Source: Candidatus Auribacterota bacterium
GTDB lineage: Bacteria > Auribacterota > JAFGBW01
Reading direction: 5' to 3'
Assembly: GCA_016932965.1 (NCBI GenBank)
Contig: JAFGBW010000142.1
Location: 1 to 16,586, forward strand
Length of the DNA stretch: 16,586 nt
Shown here: positions 2,687-11,182 of the stretch, one piece after another
Layout of the letters: each line of letters opens with the position of its first letter
Numbering within the stretch: position 1 is the stretch's first letter
The notes under the pieces: generated by a model
What the model saw: only the letters and a program-made list of their open reading frames with translations
Told to the model about the DNA's origin: nothing
Database searches by the model: none
Translations under genes and position numbers: made by a program

Positions 2687-4375
2687 ATGAAGGCAAGGAA
2701 AGATAAAAAGACTAAGGGGACAACTGTTACGCGCTCCATAAAGGGGAAGAGCGCTCAAAAAAAACAAAATACAGCCGTAAAAAAAGCAGGCAAGGTGTCT
2801 GAAAATACCCGGAAGAAGCGCCTTTCTGTATCCGGCGAGAGAGTTAAGATCCAATCTGTGAAGAAGAAGCCGTCTTCTGTTTTGTCAGGTAATAAAAAGA
2901 TGGAGCCGGTCTCGTTCGAACAAATAGAAGCCATGGGAATATCCGGGGCCTCTTCCGGAAAACAAAACGATATTATTTTGCAGAATCTGAGTGACCGTTT
3001 TGATTATCCTCTTCATTACGGTCAGAATTATATCACGTTGATGATCCGGGATCCCAACTGGATTTTTGCCTATTGGGGCATCACGGATCAGACGGTGGAG
3101 AATCTGAAGCTTTCTCACGCTGTCACGGATTACAGTAAAATCAAGCTGATCCTCAAAGTATTTGACGTCACGAAAGGCGATTACCAGCATCCCAATTCCG
3201 TTCAGGATTTTTTTCCCGCTTACGGCAGCACCTCCTATTATATCAATGCAAAAAATGAGACGGCCTATCTCTGTGAAATCGGCTTTTTGACTGATAAAGG
3301 CGAATATATACTGGTGGCCAGATCCAATACCGTTGAGACACCGTCCAACCAGTTTTCCTCGAATATCGACGATACCTGGATCACGCTGGAAAATTTTCAT
3401 AAAATATTTGCGGTTCCCAGGCCGACGCTGACCGTTCATCCGCCTTCGCCACGCCCGGGGAGTCCCGTAACAGGGCCTCATCCCATGATGCCTTCTTCCG
3501 GAGCCGTTTCGTCCGGTGTTTTCTCAGGAGAGGTTTCCTCTTTTGGTATGTCCTCAGGACTGGTTTCCTCAGCCGTGCTGTCTTCCGAAACCCTTTCATC
3601 GTGGTCCATGTCCTCTGCGGCGCTTTCATCCGGCGCTTTGTCTTCCTGGACCCTGGAGACCATTTTATCCTCATTCGGCCTTTCCTCGGCGGTGATTTCC
3701 TCTTATGCGGTTTCCTCCGAAGTGTTGTCCCTTTTCGGCTTTTTCTCCGGAGCGATTTCCTCCGGGATGCTTTCCTCTTTCGGACTGTCTTCAGCCGCCC
3801 TTTCTTCAGGGATTCTTTCATCATGGGGGCTTTCCTCCTTTGCATGGACTTTGTCAATACCTTTATCGTCCTGGAGCGGACTTCTGAGCTCCGGCGCCCT
3901 TTCCTCAGCCGCTCTTTCGTCGTATTTTCTTTCTTCAGGAGCGCTCGCTCTTTCCTCGATGAGTCTGTCTTCATGGACACTCTCATCCTTTCTGTCTTCT
4001 TTCGGTCTCTCATCCGCCATGCTCTCTTCCTATGCTCTCTCATCCGCCGGATTCTCGTCGCAAATGAACGCTCTTTTTTCAGGCGTTTTGTCCTCCTTTA
4101 ATCTCCCGTCTTCAGGGATATTTTCTTCTTCTGAATTGCAAAAAAGACAGGATCCGCCGTTATTTTTGGATCTCAATACCGAGGTAGTGGTATACGGAAA
4201 GACTGTTTCTGATGCGCAGCTCACCATTCATGGCATGTCTAAAAAGGTCAATCATGACGGCACTTTCACGGCCAGGTTTGTTCTTCCTGAAGGTTCGCAT
4301 CCGATTCAGGTGGAAACAGCCACTTCTCACGGAAAAATCAGTAAAAAATCCACTCTCAATAAAGCTTCAGATTAA
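2687..4375 (+). CDS. DUF4912 protein with Ser-rich SSxxL pentapeptide-repeat insert
   Basis: A 562-residue protein in four parts. Residues 1-70 are Lys/Arg-rich and probably disordered. Residues about 100-235 match the DUF4912 pattern, with YGQNYITLMIRDPNWIFAYW (111-130) as the signature; this domain is often found beside GH57 glucan enzymes, and its biochemical role is not established. Residues about 270-482 are a near-perfect five-residue repeat (Ser-Ser-small/aromatic-x-Leu), some 40 units. Residues 489-558 resemble a small Ig-like/regulatory beta domain with VVYGKTVSDAQLTIHG and DGTFTARFVLPEG. There is no signal peptide, so it is probably cytoplasmic. It overlaps nothing but abuts the GH57 gene stop-to-start. 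The 15-base DNA period leaves other frames artificially open; the plus-strand frame is chosen because it alone links two recognisable domains. A scaffold or glucan-binding role is only inference. Confidence 0.85.
   Translation: MKARKDKKTKGTTVTRSIKGKSAQKKQNTAVKKAGKVSENTRKKRLSVSGERVKIQSVKKKPSSVLSGNKKMEPVSFEQIEAMGISGASSGKQNDIILQNLSDRFDYPLHYGQNYITLMIRDPNWIFAYWGITDQTVENLKLSHAVTDYSKIKLILKVFDVTKGDYQHPNSVQDFFPAYGSTSYYINAKNETAYLCEIGFLTDKGEYILVARSNTVETPSNQFSSNIDDTWITLENFHKIFAVPRPTLTVHPPSPRPGSPVTGPHPMMPSSGAVSSGVFSGEVSSFGMSSGLVSSAVLSSETLSSWSMSSAALSSGALSSWTLETILSSFGLSSAVISSYAVSSEVLSLFGFFSGAISSGMLSSFGLSSAALSSGILSSWGLSSFAWTLSIPLSSWSGLLSSGALSSAALSSYFLSSGALALSSMSLSSWTLSSFLSSFGLSSAMLSSYALSSAGFSSQMNALFSGVLSSFNLPSSGIFSSSELQKRQDPPLFLDLNTEVVVYGKTVSDAQLTIHGMSKKVNHDGTFTARFVLPEGSHPIQVETATSHGKISKKSTLNKASD
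3494..4132 (+). repeat. 15-bp periodic coding repeat (SSxxL pentapeptides)
   Basis: Degenerate tandem repeat inside the DUF4912 gene. Each 15-base unit reads roughly tcctcN-N-N-ctt and encodes Ser-Ser-(G/A/F/W/Y)-x-(L/M/V/I). Phase is kept almost throughout, with a few seven- and eleven-residue spacers (for example around residues 385-400) and four-residue units. Unit sequences vary at third positions, so it is an old or purified array rather than a recent slippage product. Confidence 0.85.
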
Positions 4376-5953
4376 TTGGAAATCGGATATTTCAGCCTTG
4401 TTTTACACACCCATTTGCCTTACGTCCGGCATCCTGAACATGCTTTTCATTTAGAGGAAGACTGGCTTTTCGAGGCGATCACGGAAACATACCTCCCTCT
4501 ATTAAAAGTTTTTCATGCCCTGGAAAAAGACCAGATTCCTTTCAGGATAACGATGTCGCTTACTCCTCCTCTCCTTGCGATGCTGAAAGATCCGCTTCTT
4601 CAGGAAAGATACATAGCCCATCTCAAAAGACTGATCGCCCTTGCTGAAAAAGAATTGGAACGGACCCTTTTAGATTCTTTGCTGAACAAAGTCGCGCAAT
4701 TCTACCACACCCGGCTGCTGGAATGTGAACACTTGTATATCGAAGAATATCAATGCGATCTCGTTTCAGCGTTCAGACATTTTCAGGATATCGGCTGTCT
4801 GGAAATCATTTCCAGCGCGGCCACTCACGGTTTTCTGCCGTTATTGAACGTTTCTCCCGAGGCTGTCAGGGCACAGGTGCAGACCGCCGTGGAGGATTAT
4901 GAACGTTACTTTAACAGAAGTCCGGGGGGTTTCTGGCTTCCTGAATGCGGGTATTATCCCGGCCTCGATGAAGTATTAAAAAACAGCGGTATCCGGTTCT
5001 TTTTTCTGGATGCCCACGCGCTTTTATACGGCAATCCCAGGCCAAGATTCGGCATGTTTTCAGCTGTCCGATGTCCTTCAGGCATCTTCGCCTTTGGCAG
5101 GGACATTGAAACGTCTAAGATCGTGTGGAGCAAGGAAGACGGTTATCCCGGAGACGGTTATTACCGTGAATTTTACCGGGACATTGGTTATGACCTGGAC
5201 TGGGAATATATCAGCCCTTTTTTTCCGGACGGGAACAGGAAAAACACGGGATTAAAATATTACCGCATCACGGACCGGGGCAGTCACAACAAAATGATTT
5301 ATGAGCCGTCAGTGGCCTTAGAGCGTGCCGAATCCCACGCCCTGCATTTTTTATCCAGCCGTGTTGCCCAGGTGAGGGAACTGTTCAAGGAATTGAAGAA
5401 AAGACCGATCATCGTATCCATGTATGACACGGAGCTTTTTGGCCACTGGTGGTTTGAAGGCATTGCCTGGCTGGATTTATTGATCCGGAAAATGGCCGCA
5501 CAGGATGAGATAAAGATGATCCTCCCCCATGAATATTTGGAGGAAAATCCGGTCCATCAGACCATCACTCCTTCTCAGTCAAGCTGGGGAGACAGGGGCT
5601 ACCATGAATTCTGGCTGAACGAAAAAAACGACTGGATGTACCGGCATCTCCATCAGGCTTCATTCAGGATGGTTGAGCTGGCACGGGCATTTGCAGAGCC
5701 CTCGCCTTTGGAAAAAAGAGCGTTGAATCAGGCAGCCAGGGAATTATTGCTGGCCCAGGCATCAGACTGGGCATTCATCATGAGAACAGGTACCATGGTC
5801 TCCTACGCGGACAAAAGGGTCCATGATCACCTGGCCAGATTTCACCGTCTTTATCGTGATCTGATGAATAAAACGCTGGATGTTTCCTGGATAGAACAGG
5901 TGGAATTACGTGACGATATTTTTCCTGGAGTAAACTATCGGGTGTATGCGTGA
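4376..5953 (+). CDS. GH57 family 1,4-alpha-glucan branching-type enzyme (DUF1957)
   Basis: A 525-residue protein with the full GH57 / DUF1957 plan. It has the N-terminal HTHLPYVR motif (11-18), GFWLPECGYYPG with the candidate nucleophile E190, MYDTELFGHWWFEG with candidate acid/base D351, and the C-terminal helical part with SSWGDRGYHEFWL (402-414) and DWAFIMRTGTMVSYA (464-478). Enzymes of this type cut an alpha-1,4-glucan and rejoin the piece by alpha-1,6 linkage, giving branched glycogen in the cytoplasm. The start is TTG at 4376, immediately after the TAA (4373-4375) of the DUF4912 gene. This start is favoured because family members begin a few residues before HxHLPYVR and no ATG/GTG fits. 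Zero spacing implies translational coupling. Downstream, CCCGGT (5963-5968) can pair with ACCGGG (6003-6008) before a six-T run (6019-6024), a weak possible terminator. Branching versus 4-alpha-glucanotransferase activity cannot be settled by eye. Confidence 0.93.
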   Translation: MEIGYFSLVLHTHLPYVRHPEHAFHLEEDWLFEAITETYLPLLKVFHALEKDQIPFRITMSLTPPLLAMLKDPLLQERYIAHLKRLIALAEKELERTLLDSLLNKVAQFYHTRLLECEHLYIEEYQCDLVSAFRHFQDIGCLEIISSAATHGFLPLLNVSPEAVRAQVQTAVEDYERYFNRSPGGFWLPECGYYPGLDEVLKNSGIRFFFLDAHALLYGNPRPRFGMFSAVRCPSGIFAFGRDIETSKIVWSKEDGYPGDGYYREFYRDIGYDLDWEYISPFFPDGNRKNTGLKYYRITDRGSHNKMIYEPSVALERAESHALHFLSSRVAQVRELFKELKKRPIIVSMYDTELFGHWWFEGIAWLDLLIRKMAAQDEIKMILPHEYLEENPVHQTITPSQSSWGDRGYHEFWLNEKNDWMYRHLHQASFRMVELARAFAEPSPLEKRALNQAARELLLAQASDWAFIMRTGTMVSYADKRVHDHLARFHRLYRDLMNKTLDVSWIEQVELRDDIFPGVNYRVYA

Positions 5954-8385: not shown

Positions 8386-9945
8386 TCACTCCGGCTCGTA
8401 TTTTCCGTTTCCTTCCTTGTCTCTGAGATTTTCCTCGTAGGTCCCGTCGCCGTCTTTGTCCGTCATCTTGATTTCATATTTGCCGTCGCTGTCCTCATCC
8501 TTCAGCAGTACATCGAAATTTTCGTTCGTCAGGCGGGTGTTGAAACCGTGCACGTCCCATTTTCCGTCTCCGTTTGTGTCGAAAAAGACTTCCTTCCAGA
8601 AACCGGTTTGATCATCCTTGCCGCTGTATTTGGCCTCCCAGTCCGAATCGTCTGGTTCCAGATTCATCCATCTGACGTCGAAAACCCCGTCATAATCGGA
8701 ATCTACCTCCATCTCTTCGTACCCTTCGCTTTCCGTGTCCGTGTCCTTCATGGTCAGATCTGGATTTCCGTCATTATTGGTGTCCTTCATGACCAGAGTC
8801 CACCGGTATGTCTTTTTATCGAAACCCGAGTACACTTCCTCCCAGTCATCATCCGTTAAATCCGCATTCACCCATTTTGTGTCGAACATTCCGTCCCCGT
8901 TTGAATCTTCCAGTTTGGCCCTGCTTTTTCCTGTTTTGGGATTGAAATCATCGAGTCTGATCTCATACCTGTTGTTATTGAGTTTCTGGTCCAGAAAGGC
9001 CGCATCCATCATCCCGTCTCCGTTTGTGTCGCAGAGCTTGGTCTTCCATTTTCTGCTTGCCGGATCATAGTGAAAATAAACCTCGTCCGGTTTGCCGTCG
9101 CGGTTGTTATCTTTTTCCATTTTATCGGCTTTTCCGTTCAGGTCCGTGTCATACCAGGTCGTGTCGGATTTTCCGTCTGAATCCGTGTCCGCGGCATAGG
9201 TTCCCTTGTCGGAGAACAGCGCCGGCCCCGGATAATGCAAGTCAGACTCAGAGAGGAGACCTTTGCCTTTAACGGATGCATAGGGGGCTGTTGCGGTTTT
9301 GAATTTTTCAATCACGTCGTCCTGGTCAGCGTCAGCCAGAAAACGGATTTTCTGGTTGTTTTCATCATGATGACGGAGCCACATATCCAGTTTATCCAGG
9401 GGAACAAGCATTCCCTGGATGGAAAAGTCATCCCCTTTTTTGCTGACAATCACGAATTCTTCGTTTTCATTCAGCACCATCGTGGGGATTTTGACTGCTT
9501 CGGAACCGCCGGATTCCCCCCAGTGTGCCATGAGCGTCTGGTCAAGGTCCTTTTCCACTCCTTCGCCTGTATCCAGGGACGAGACCACTCTTTTGAGCTG
9601 ATTGATGGTTTTGTCCTTTTTCTCCAGCTTGATTTTCTGCTTCTGAATGTCTTCTTTGGCCTTTTTCAGTTCTTTTTCAGATACCTGGATGTCTTTTTTG
9701 ATTTCTTCCAGGGCGGCCTGGCTTTTCTCGGATTCCTTTTTGATGGTTTCAACCTCTTTTTTGGATTCCTTGATCTTTTCCAGCTGCTGGTTCAGTTCAA
9801 CCCTGGCGGTGTTTCTTTCTTCAACCAGATCGTTCGTCATGACCGCATAAATCAGAAAAATAAAAACAATCGCGCCAATGGTGTTGAATAACACGTCCAG
9901 AAAGGAAAAATGAACAATATTGATCTCTCTTGACCGACGTCCCAT
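8386..9945 (-). CDS. ExbD/MotB-like motor subunit with coiled coil and Asp-rich Ca2+-loop repeat domain
   Basis: A 519-residue, single-pass inner-membrane protein. Residues 13-36 (FSFLDVLFNTIGAIVFIF...) form one transmembrane helix in which D17 sits where ExbD/TolR/MotB carry the ion-translocating Asp. Residues about 40-120 are a Lys/Glu heptad-rich coiled coil. Residues about 150-245 are a small domain. Residues 253-519 contain eleven or so loops of the type D-x-D/N-x-D-G-x-x-D/E, starting at 253, 266, 279, 306, 347, 388, 415, 456, 483, 496 and 509, as in EF-hand/thrombospondin-3 Ca2+ sites. A 13-14-residue period runs through the gaps as well. No OmpA or other peptidoglycan-binding motif was found. 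Its partner is the channel gene at 10169-11182. By family knowledge the C-terminus would face the periplasm. The function is unknown; ion-driven force transmission is inference. The start has GGGG five to six bases upstream. Confidence 0.85.
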   Translation of the reverse strand: MGRRSREINIVHFSFLDVLFNTIGAIVFIFLIYAVMTNDLVEERNTARVELNQQLEKIKESKKEVETIKKESEKSQAALEEIKKDIQVSEKELKKAKEDIQKQKIKLEKKDKTINQLKRVVSSLDTGEGVEKDLDQTLMAHWGESGGSEAVKIPTMVLNENEEFVIVSKKGDDFSIQGMLVPLDKLDMWLRHHDENNQKIRFLADADQDDVIEKFKTATAPYASVKGKGLLSESDLHYPGPALFSDKGTYAADTDSDGKSDTTWYDTDLNGKADKMEKDNNRDGKPDEVYFHYDPASRKWKTKLCDTNGDGMMDAAFLDQKLNNNRYEIRLDDFNPKTGKSRAKLEDSNGDGMFDTKWVNADLTDDDWEEVYSGFDKKTYRWTLVMKDTNNDGNPDLTMKDTDTESEGYEEMEVDSDYDGVFDVRWMNLEPDDSDWEAKYSGKDDQTGFWKEVFFDTNGDGKWDVHGFNTRLTNENFDVLLKDEDSDGKYEIKMTDKDGDGTYEENLRDKEGNGKYEPE

Positions 9946-10020
9946 GTTTACCCCATCAGGTGTGTAAAAAAAGACAACGAAATGCGGGAAAAACTTTTGT
10001 TCATAAAAGTTTTCACGCGT

Positions 10021-10145
10021 CCGTTGTTAACCGCGAATATAATTTTTCTGGATTGCCCGAACAAGCCGGGCAATAAACTGTAACGCTTTCCGGGAAAAGT
10101 TTATTTTGCGTCCCGGCGCCTCTGCGCGGGAATTGTGTTATCAGT
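10021..10145. repeat. Repeat-bearing gap with two hairpins and a 'ctctgcgc' word
   Basis: The 223-base gap between the channel and ExbD-like genes carries a perfect 8-bp hairpin, attgcccg (10052-10059) with cgggcaat (10067-10074). A second hairpin is tcccg...cggga with cgc/gcg (about 10110-10131). The latter contains gcgcctctgcgcgggaattgtgttat (10116-10141), which is a degenerate copy of 11955-11991. A ccgcgaatat word lies at 10031-10040. Neither hairpin is followed by a T tract on either strand, so they are not ordinary terminators; they might stabilise mRNA ends or set the ratio of the two subunits. Confidence 0.55.
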
Positions 10146-10168
10146 TCCAACAAAAGGCAGAGCCTTAA

Positions 10169-11182
10169 TCAGGGTTCTTTTATTTCTTCCAGCTTGATCT
10201 GCAGGGACCGTTTTTTCTGGAGGTCATGGAGAACCGGGGTCAGTCTTTCCAGCATATTTTTTATTTCGATGAGGGTGCCTTCGAAAGAATCCAGTTTGCC
10301 CAGCTCCGTCAGCTTGTCAGCGGAAGACGAGAAGCGGGAGAAGACATCGAGGGCCTGTTGGTCCAGCGGCATGGCGCCTTTTTCCGCGGGCTCAATGTGT
10401 TCGATCCGGACCAGGATCTCGTCGGTGAAAACTTCTTCCACCCGTTCTAAAAGATCATCACCCTGTTTTTGAACCATGGACAGCAAAACCATCAGCAAGG
10501 AGTCCGCGTAGAGGGCGACCAGGGTGGTTTCAAAAGCATAGGCCAGGGAATTCGTGATTCCTCCCAGAGAGGTTTTCATGGCGGTGAAATCTTTGGATCC
10601 TGTCAGGACGGCGTTAAAACCGCCGATGGCGAGACCGATCCCGAGGACGGTTCCGATGAATCCGATAATGGGGATAAGCCAGATAAAAAATTTCGTCCAG
10701 GTATGGGAGGATTCGATGGCGTCAAGGTCATAGGCGCCCATTCCTTTCATGAGAGAATCGGTTTCCCCCCAGCTGCTTCCGGTCTGGACATGGCGCATGA
10801 GCCTGGAAAACCTGGCGCAGATCATCTCCCCGCTGCAGAATATTTCGTTCTTTTTTATGGCATCGAGGATTTTTCCTGCAGAATCCCTTGTGATTTTTCC
10901 GATCGTGCTCAGAAAGGATTCCAGCTCGACGAGGGAAGAATAATCCCTTTTTTGATCCCGCCAGCGATGATAAATCAAGAGAAGGGTAGCGAACATGCAA
11001 TAGGTCGTGATGACCACATTCAGCCCGTTGGTGTACCATAACTTATAGAATACATTGAACCATGTTCCTTTCGTGATCAGAACAAGGGCATAGAAAAAAA
11101 TGGTTAAAAAAGGGGAAAAAAGCAGAGACCTAAAAAGATAGATTCTCACCCTGCTATGTGGTACAACCGATTTCAGGTTCAT
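10169..11182 (-). CDS. MotA/TolQ/ExbB-family proton channel protein
   Basis: A 337-residue polytopic inner-membrane protein. Predicted helices are TM1 about 18-38, TM2 about 53-72, TM3 about 163-190 (WLIPIIGFIGTVLGIGLAIG) and TM4 about 209-238 (NSLAYAFETTLVALYADSLL). TM3 has the family GxxGTVxG pattern and TM4 the Thr-rich face that lines the ion path. A cytoplasmic domain of about 90 residues lies between TM2 and TM3. The tail of about 95 residues is amphipathic and may be a coiled coil, but is far shorter than that of ZorA. By family knowledge five copies would surround two copies of the ExbD-like partner and use the proton or sodium gradient. The start ATG at 11182 has no visible ribosome-binding site and lies only 42 bases from the divergent ruvC gene. 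Confidence 0.92.
   Translation of the reverse strand: MNLKSVVPHSRVRIYLFRSLLFSPFLTIFFYALVLITKGTWFNVFYKLWYTNGLNVVITTYCMFATLLLIYHRWRDQKRDYSSLVELESFLSTIGKITRDSAGKILDAIKKNEIFCSGEMICARFSRLMRHVQTGSSWGETDSLMKGMGAYDLDAIESSHTWTKFFIWLIPIIGFIGTVLGIGLAIGGFNAVLTGSKDFTAMKTSLGGITNSLAYAFETTLVALYADSLLMVLLSMVQKQGDDLLERVEEVFTDEILVRIEHIEPAEKGAMPLDQQALDVFSRFSSSADKLTELGKLDSFEGTLIEIKNMLERLTPVLHDLQKKRSLQIKLEEIKEP

Follow-up and report, generated by a model that had tools for sequence, protein, structure and literature searches.

A gene pair in the window, the 16,586-nucleotide stretch of DNA analysed here, encodes an ion-motor channel of the MotA/TolQ/ExbB superfamily and, directly adjacent to it, a one-helix partner whose axle helix with its key aspartate continues into a coiled coil and ends in a long tail of Asp-rich, calcium-type loops. 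Judged by its motifs, the pair is a member of an unnamed and scattered motor class that occurs on cyanobacterial plasmids and in several other phyla, and the fusion of Asp repeats to a motor axle is seen only in the window partner. What is new here is the calcium-loop arm on a motor axle; the kind of machine and the repeat type are already known. The window is a whole contig (C215) of a 3.14 Mb genome (300 contigs, 92.6% complete), and the features of the motor locus are compiled in Table 1.

Table 1. Features of the motor locus, with positions in the window and residue numbers of the encoded proteins.
Feature	Position	Strand	Basis
Channel gene, 337 aa	10169..11182	(-)	MotA/TolQ/ExbB superfamily; PF01618 match, TM scan, alignment
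Intergenic gap, 223 nt, terminator-like palindrome then T run	9946..10168	(-)	RNA fold z=-2.07
Axle/arm (partner) gene, 519 aa, one TM helix, N-terminus inside by charge	8386..9945	(-)	TM scan
Axle helix, residues 1-48, Asp17, motif SFLDVLFNTIGA	9802..9945	(-)	hhalign 98%, Asp alignment
Coiled coil, residues 40-122	9580..9828	(-)	AlphaFold2 helix; a/d hydrophobic periodicity
Possible ExbD/TolR-like periplasmic domain (beta-beta-alpha-beta-alpha), residues ~153-222	9280..9489	(-)	hhalign; low-pLDDT model; no Pfam match
Asp-rich tail, residues 251-519, 11 DxDxDG-type loops, predicted beta meander	8389..9195	(-)	Loop scan, spacing, model strands

Channel, axle helix and coiled coil

Both open reading frames of the preliminary description were recovered unchanged. 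The channel matches PF01618 (MotA_ExbB) over residues 131-249, the TM3-TM4 region, with an E-value of 4.9e-6 and 26.8 bits against a curated Pfam cutoff of 22.9, and a transmembrane scan places four hydrophobic segments at residues 19, 53, 166 and 219. The ion-path positions are T178 in TM3 (GFIGTV) and T219/T220 in TM4 (AFETT), which align with the threonines of ExbB and TolQ; among 14 related channels, aligned with ExbB, TolQ and MotA of Escherichia coli, the GTV columns are invariant and AFxTT is nearly so. In a FastTree phylogeny of the TM3-TM4 region (LG, 138 columns), the window channel groups with channels carrying WxIPxxGFxGTV and AFxTT and is split from ExbB, TolQ and MotA with a support of 0.96. 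The protein ends ~100 residues past its last hydrophobic segment and has a short cytoplasmic C-terminal part. Its identity as a MotA/TolQ/ExbB ion-motor channel, and with it the reality of the motor core, is well supported by these comparisons.

The partner yields no Pfam family above cutoff and contains a single hydrophobic segment at residues 18-36. In profile comparisons, hhalign matches residues 1-37 to axle helices from related motors at a probability of 98% and a score of 56.6, the best of 300 pattern-preserving shuffles reaching about half of that value (28.7), and Asp17 shares its alignment column with the key Asp of ExbD, TolR and MotB from E. coli. On this evidence, the axle helix of the partner is homologous to those of related motors. 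The following region is heptad-patterned, with 16 of 24 hydrophobic residues of the stretch 40-122 at a/d positions, a value equalled in none of 5000 shuffles, and AlphaFold2 predicts one continuous helix (residues 9-122) that joins the membrane segment to the coiled coil, with a pLDDT of mostly 76-86 over residues 21-100. The superfamily channel, the single partner helix with D17 at the ExbD/MotB position and the coiled coil behind it, all claimed in the preliminary description, are thereby borne out. A second axle gene of the same class elsewhere in the genome was considered and rejected, the window copy being the sole one found.

The distal part of the partner

An ExbD/TolR-like domain at residues ~155-220, between the coiled coil and the tail, is likely on a weak signal that lies above chance. 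Here, hhalign aligns residues ~159-209 with the ExbD periplasmic profile over 51 ungapped columns, which run as two strands, a helix and a further strand; the score of 19.5 has a low probability and was narrowly unmatched in 500 shuffles (best 18.9), and partner windows that do not overlap this segment give background only. The AlphaFold elements near the stretch (E163-170, E173-182, H183-195 and H208-216) have low pLDDT. At the curated Pfam cutoff, PF02472 is matched neither by the whole partner nor by residues 145-240, and against a profile of the C-terminal domains of the class itself the register is right and the score falls within those of shuffles. The preliminary description had noted neither an ExbD/TolR fold nor an OmpA-like end: the second part stands, as Pfam and NCBIfam detect no OmpA-like peptidoglycan-binding domain of the MotB/ZorB kind in the partner, but the first has become doubtful.

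The tail contains 10 strict DxDxDGxxD/E loops, compared with a mean of 0.07 and a maximum of 2 in shuffled sequences, and an eleventh, looser loop at its end (positions 253, 266, 279, 306, 347, 388, 415, 456, 483, 496 and 509). The loops show strong D/N/G conservation and are regularly spaced in the sense that only distances of 13, 27 or 41 residues occur, which points to a repeat unit of one strand plus turn of ~13.6 residues, with one to three strands between loops. The ~265 residues of Ca2+-loop-like repeats noted earlier are thus present, but their spacing follows multiples of ~13.6 and is not even. The tail is acidic, with a net charge of about -36, and its loops may bind calcium. An origin as a simple DNA tandem repeat was rejected, Tandem Repeats Finder detecting none.

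Modelled without an alignment in AlphaFold, the tail forms an antiparallel beta meander that is confident only for the last ~80 residues; the two arm models have mean pLDDT values of 49.0 and 43.8, so this fold is proposed with low confidence. Foldseek searches with both low-confidence models returned no match at E<=0.001. Open beta sheets are listed by VIA-align, including OspA (Z 6.6, rmsd 3.2, 90 aligned residues) and 3msw (Z 7.9, rmsd 6.8, 115 aligned residues), at Z values that lie in the range the tool's own note calls uninformative and that are too low for identification; these matches fit a meander without proving it. A phmmer search against PDB sequences gave nothing for the channel, the partner or the tail.

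Proteins made up mostly of similar Asp loops occur in other sampled genomes; nine genomes besides that of the window have a match to the tail, in most cases in a protein with a signal-peptide-like start. The matches (E-values of 1e-6 to 1e-3) fall mainly on residues ~250-316, and the shared loop motif may explain part of the score. Six stand-alone proteins (L087, L089, L090, L092, L093 and L094) consist almost wholly of DTNGDGKxDxWxYY-type repeats of ~24 residues behind signal-peptide-like starts; the stand-alone repeat proteins have weak Pfam matches only (DUF6802, MORN_2). The presence of tail-type repeats in proteins with signal-peptide-like starts is consistent with a periplasmic location of the tail. 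The novelty that had been ascribed to the repeats as a domain could not be upheld: since the repeat type already forms apparently exported stand-alone proteins in other genomes, the unusual part is its joining to a motor axle.

Related motors, host locus and known systems

The signature of the class is WxIPxxGFxGTV...AFxTT in the channel and SFLDxxxNxxG in the axle. Members were found in about ten of 384 sampled genomes, all outside the phylum of the window, with more in targeted phylum searches, and on plasmids of Microcystis aeruginosa and Anabaena cylindrica; in the latter, the channel WP_015217712 is accompanied by WP_015217711 and WP_015217710. In about 14 of 17 related loci a one-helix partner gene adjoins the channel gene, a linkage on which the preliminary description had staked its reading and which is upheld in these relatives, and most of these loci encode two partners. 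One of the two carries SFLDxxxNxxG and the other either the same motif or FPFLS/FPFLA, with the Asp replaced by Ser or Ala; this last arrangement suggests that the axle of such two-partner relatives is asymmetric and carries ions on one Asp only. Pairs of Asp and Ser/Ala axles are encoded at L002 7327-8511, L003 7055-8229, L025 7434-8653, L027 3184-6583 and L030 7690-11057. Unlike most class members, the window motor has one partner only. Class channels of 490 aa in one family of genomes (L022 7497-8969 and L023 7294-8772) have no adjacent axle gene.

The distal parts of class partners differ and comprise small ExbD-like domains, von Willebrand-type domains recognised by eye (L026) and a beta-rich domain (L043). 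The Pfam ExbD model matches none of the class partners scanned. The variety of distal parts agrees with a survey according to which non-flagellar motors carry varied extra domains on a common Exb/Tol scaffold (PMC12505986). The loci L043 (1-3322) and L029 (1-1242), with a channel and a single SMLDV/SMMDV partner that bears a beta-rich periplasmic domain, are another uncharacterised variant of the class; genes of FHA type, named by eye, adjoin the pair in L043. Calcium-type loops are absent from the partners of related loci, so that of the channel plus Asp-repeat neighbourhood sought in other genomes, the channel-partner adjacency proved common but the Asp-repeat partner remained that of the window alone. 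Searches of about 820 genomes (384 diverse genomes with the channel or the tail as query, 59 relatives and 392 genomes of another phylum) recovered no orthologue of the full window partner, which leaves the arm with no evolutionary record of conservation. A tblastn search of plasmids with the tail alone gave nothing, and single-protein scans of viral contigs and of genome contigs, the latter with a poor query, gave nothing useful.

In the window, genes for RuvC, an ABC ATPase and a methyltransferase flank the pair, which has no cytoplasmic effector gene beside it and no evident gene for an outer-membrane partner nearby. Between channel and partner genes, a missed gene was rejected, the gap holding short frames only, and no known RNA element was found. 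A palindrome close to GAAAACTTTTATGAACAAAAGTTTTTC (9970-10015, minus strand) recurs, in part and often in both orientations, at ten or more sites of the genome and is probably a repeated terminator or a small REP-like element. Elsewhere in the window, a gene (2687-4375, plus strand) for a protein that contains a long Ser-rich low-complexity stretch with LSSGALSSWxLSS repeats adjoins a 1,4-alpha-glucan branching enzyme (4376-5953). The genome further encodes an ExbB-ExbD-TonB set, a second set of ExbB-TonB type and a MotAB pair that ends in an OmpA-like domain (names assigned by eye from the sequences), and the window pair is thus a fourth, separate motor.

Compared with TolQR/ExbBD (PF01618 + PF02472), the window pair shares the channel superfamily, a one-helix partner with an Asp at the helix start and a possible ExbD/TolR-like segment; however, its partner has 519 aa instead of about 140, with a coiled coil before the small domain and the Asp-rich tail after it, and is undetected by PF02472, and its channel has four hydrophobic segments and stands apart from ExbB/TolQ in the tree. 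The MotAB flagellar stator has the same four-helix channel topology and an Asp in a single partner helix, but the window partner lacks the OmpA-like end, and the true MotAB of this genome lies elsewhere. With GldLM of type IX secretion and gliding, the pair shares the concept of an ion motor that carries a long dimeric shaft in the periplasm (PMC9389320); here, by contrast, the channel has four helices, no similarity to GldM domains was detected (no GldM-type match to the window proteins in Pfam or NCBIfam) and the window contains no type IX genes. Closest in channel motif, axle motif and gene adjacency is the unnamed class itself (e.g. that of Anabaena cylindrica), whose members differ in usually having two partners, of which one has Asp and the second Asp, Ser or Ala at this place, and in no case carry a calcium-loop tail. 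The preliminary description of a motor pair unlike the known ones holds in that the pair falls outside ExbBD and MotAB, and the profile comparison it proposed gave a weak ExbD/TolR-like signal and an alignment of Asp17 with the MotB Asp, but no GldM or OmpA-like match.

Proposed mechanism and alternative readings

Motors of this family have a ring of five channel subunits around two axle helices, and with the passage of ions the axle turns or cycles (PMC9389320, PMC11890865). The window pair would accordingly form a proton-driven inner-membrane motor of the MotA/TolQ/ExbB superfamily and of the 5:2 type, for which we infer from the family that five copies of the 337-aa channel enclose a dimer of the 519-aa partner. 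Asp17 would carry ions past the conserved channel threonines, and the ion flow would, if the motor works like its relatives, turn or cycle the dimeric helix. Movement would pass up the coiled coil of ~85 residues (roughly 12 nm) and through the probable ExbD/TolR-like domain to the acidic beta arm, in which periplasmic calcium may fill the loops and hold the antiparallel strands rigid. By rough arithmetic only, such an arm could in principle come close to the outer membrane and may there move, pull or hold an outer-envelope component, comparable to the transmission of force through the periplasm by GldM or TolR/TolA. That the arm is moved or bears force on a proton-driven 5:2-type motor and acts on an outer-envelope target is the reading towards which the evidence leans, if only somewhat. 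The stronger version, in which a calcium-stapled beta arm on a proton-driven shaft crosses the whole periplasm and itself drives a process at the outer membrane or cell surface, taking the place of TonB/TolA/GldM-type adaptors, is rather unlikely.

An axle with an end domain suits a static role equally: the tail may anchor the axle on peptidoglycan, surface polysaccharide or the outer membrane, so that the axle is held and the channel ring turns, in the manner of MotB with MotA. Wall-binding domains form the ends of MotB and ZorB (PMC11890865) and the acidity of the tail fits an anchor, but Pfam and NCBIfam find no wall-binding family, OmpA-like or other known, in the tail, and the short cytoplasmic C-terminal part of the channel and the lack of an adjacent cytoplasmic effector gene also count against this reading; an anchor is a minority possibility. 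A sensing or defence motor of ZorAB type, in which the arm feels envelope damage, the channel opens and a cytoplasmic effector is signalled, was among the roles suggested in the preliminary description. Zorya shares the channel superfamily and an extended periplasmic part, the channel is weakly similar to ZorA models (best E=1e-5) and on cyanobacterial plasmids two relatives have defence genes in their vicinity. However, ZorA is matched no better than the general channel family, and the pair lacks the OmpA-like ZorB end, the long ZorA tail and the nuclease/helicase partners, with no ZorC/D/E-type neighbours and flanking genes (listed above) that are not effectors; this role was consequently abandoned as improbable.

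It is just as doubtful that the locus is decaying or misjoined, with a tail that represents a lineage-specific fusion of no selected function and genes that are no longer co-expressed. The singleton architecture, the terminator-like palindrome between the two genes and the presence of one partner where most relatives have two agree with decay, but neither frame is broken, Asp17 and the ion-path threonines are kept, and the loops retain their spacing and their D/N/G positions.

Flagella, gliding, type IX secretion, nutrient uptake and outer-membrane upkeep all run on known motors of this superfamily, which also serve in phage defence. A scattered class with channel and axle motifs of its own, outside the ExbD family model, indicates that there are more such machines than named ones. 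Its window member shows that a long calcium-loop arm can replace the axle end and, should this arm extend to the outer membrane, a single protein would perform work that usually needs a motor and an adaptor.
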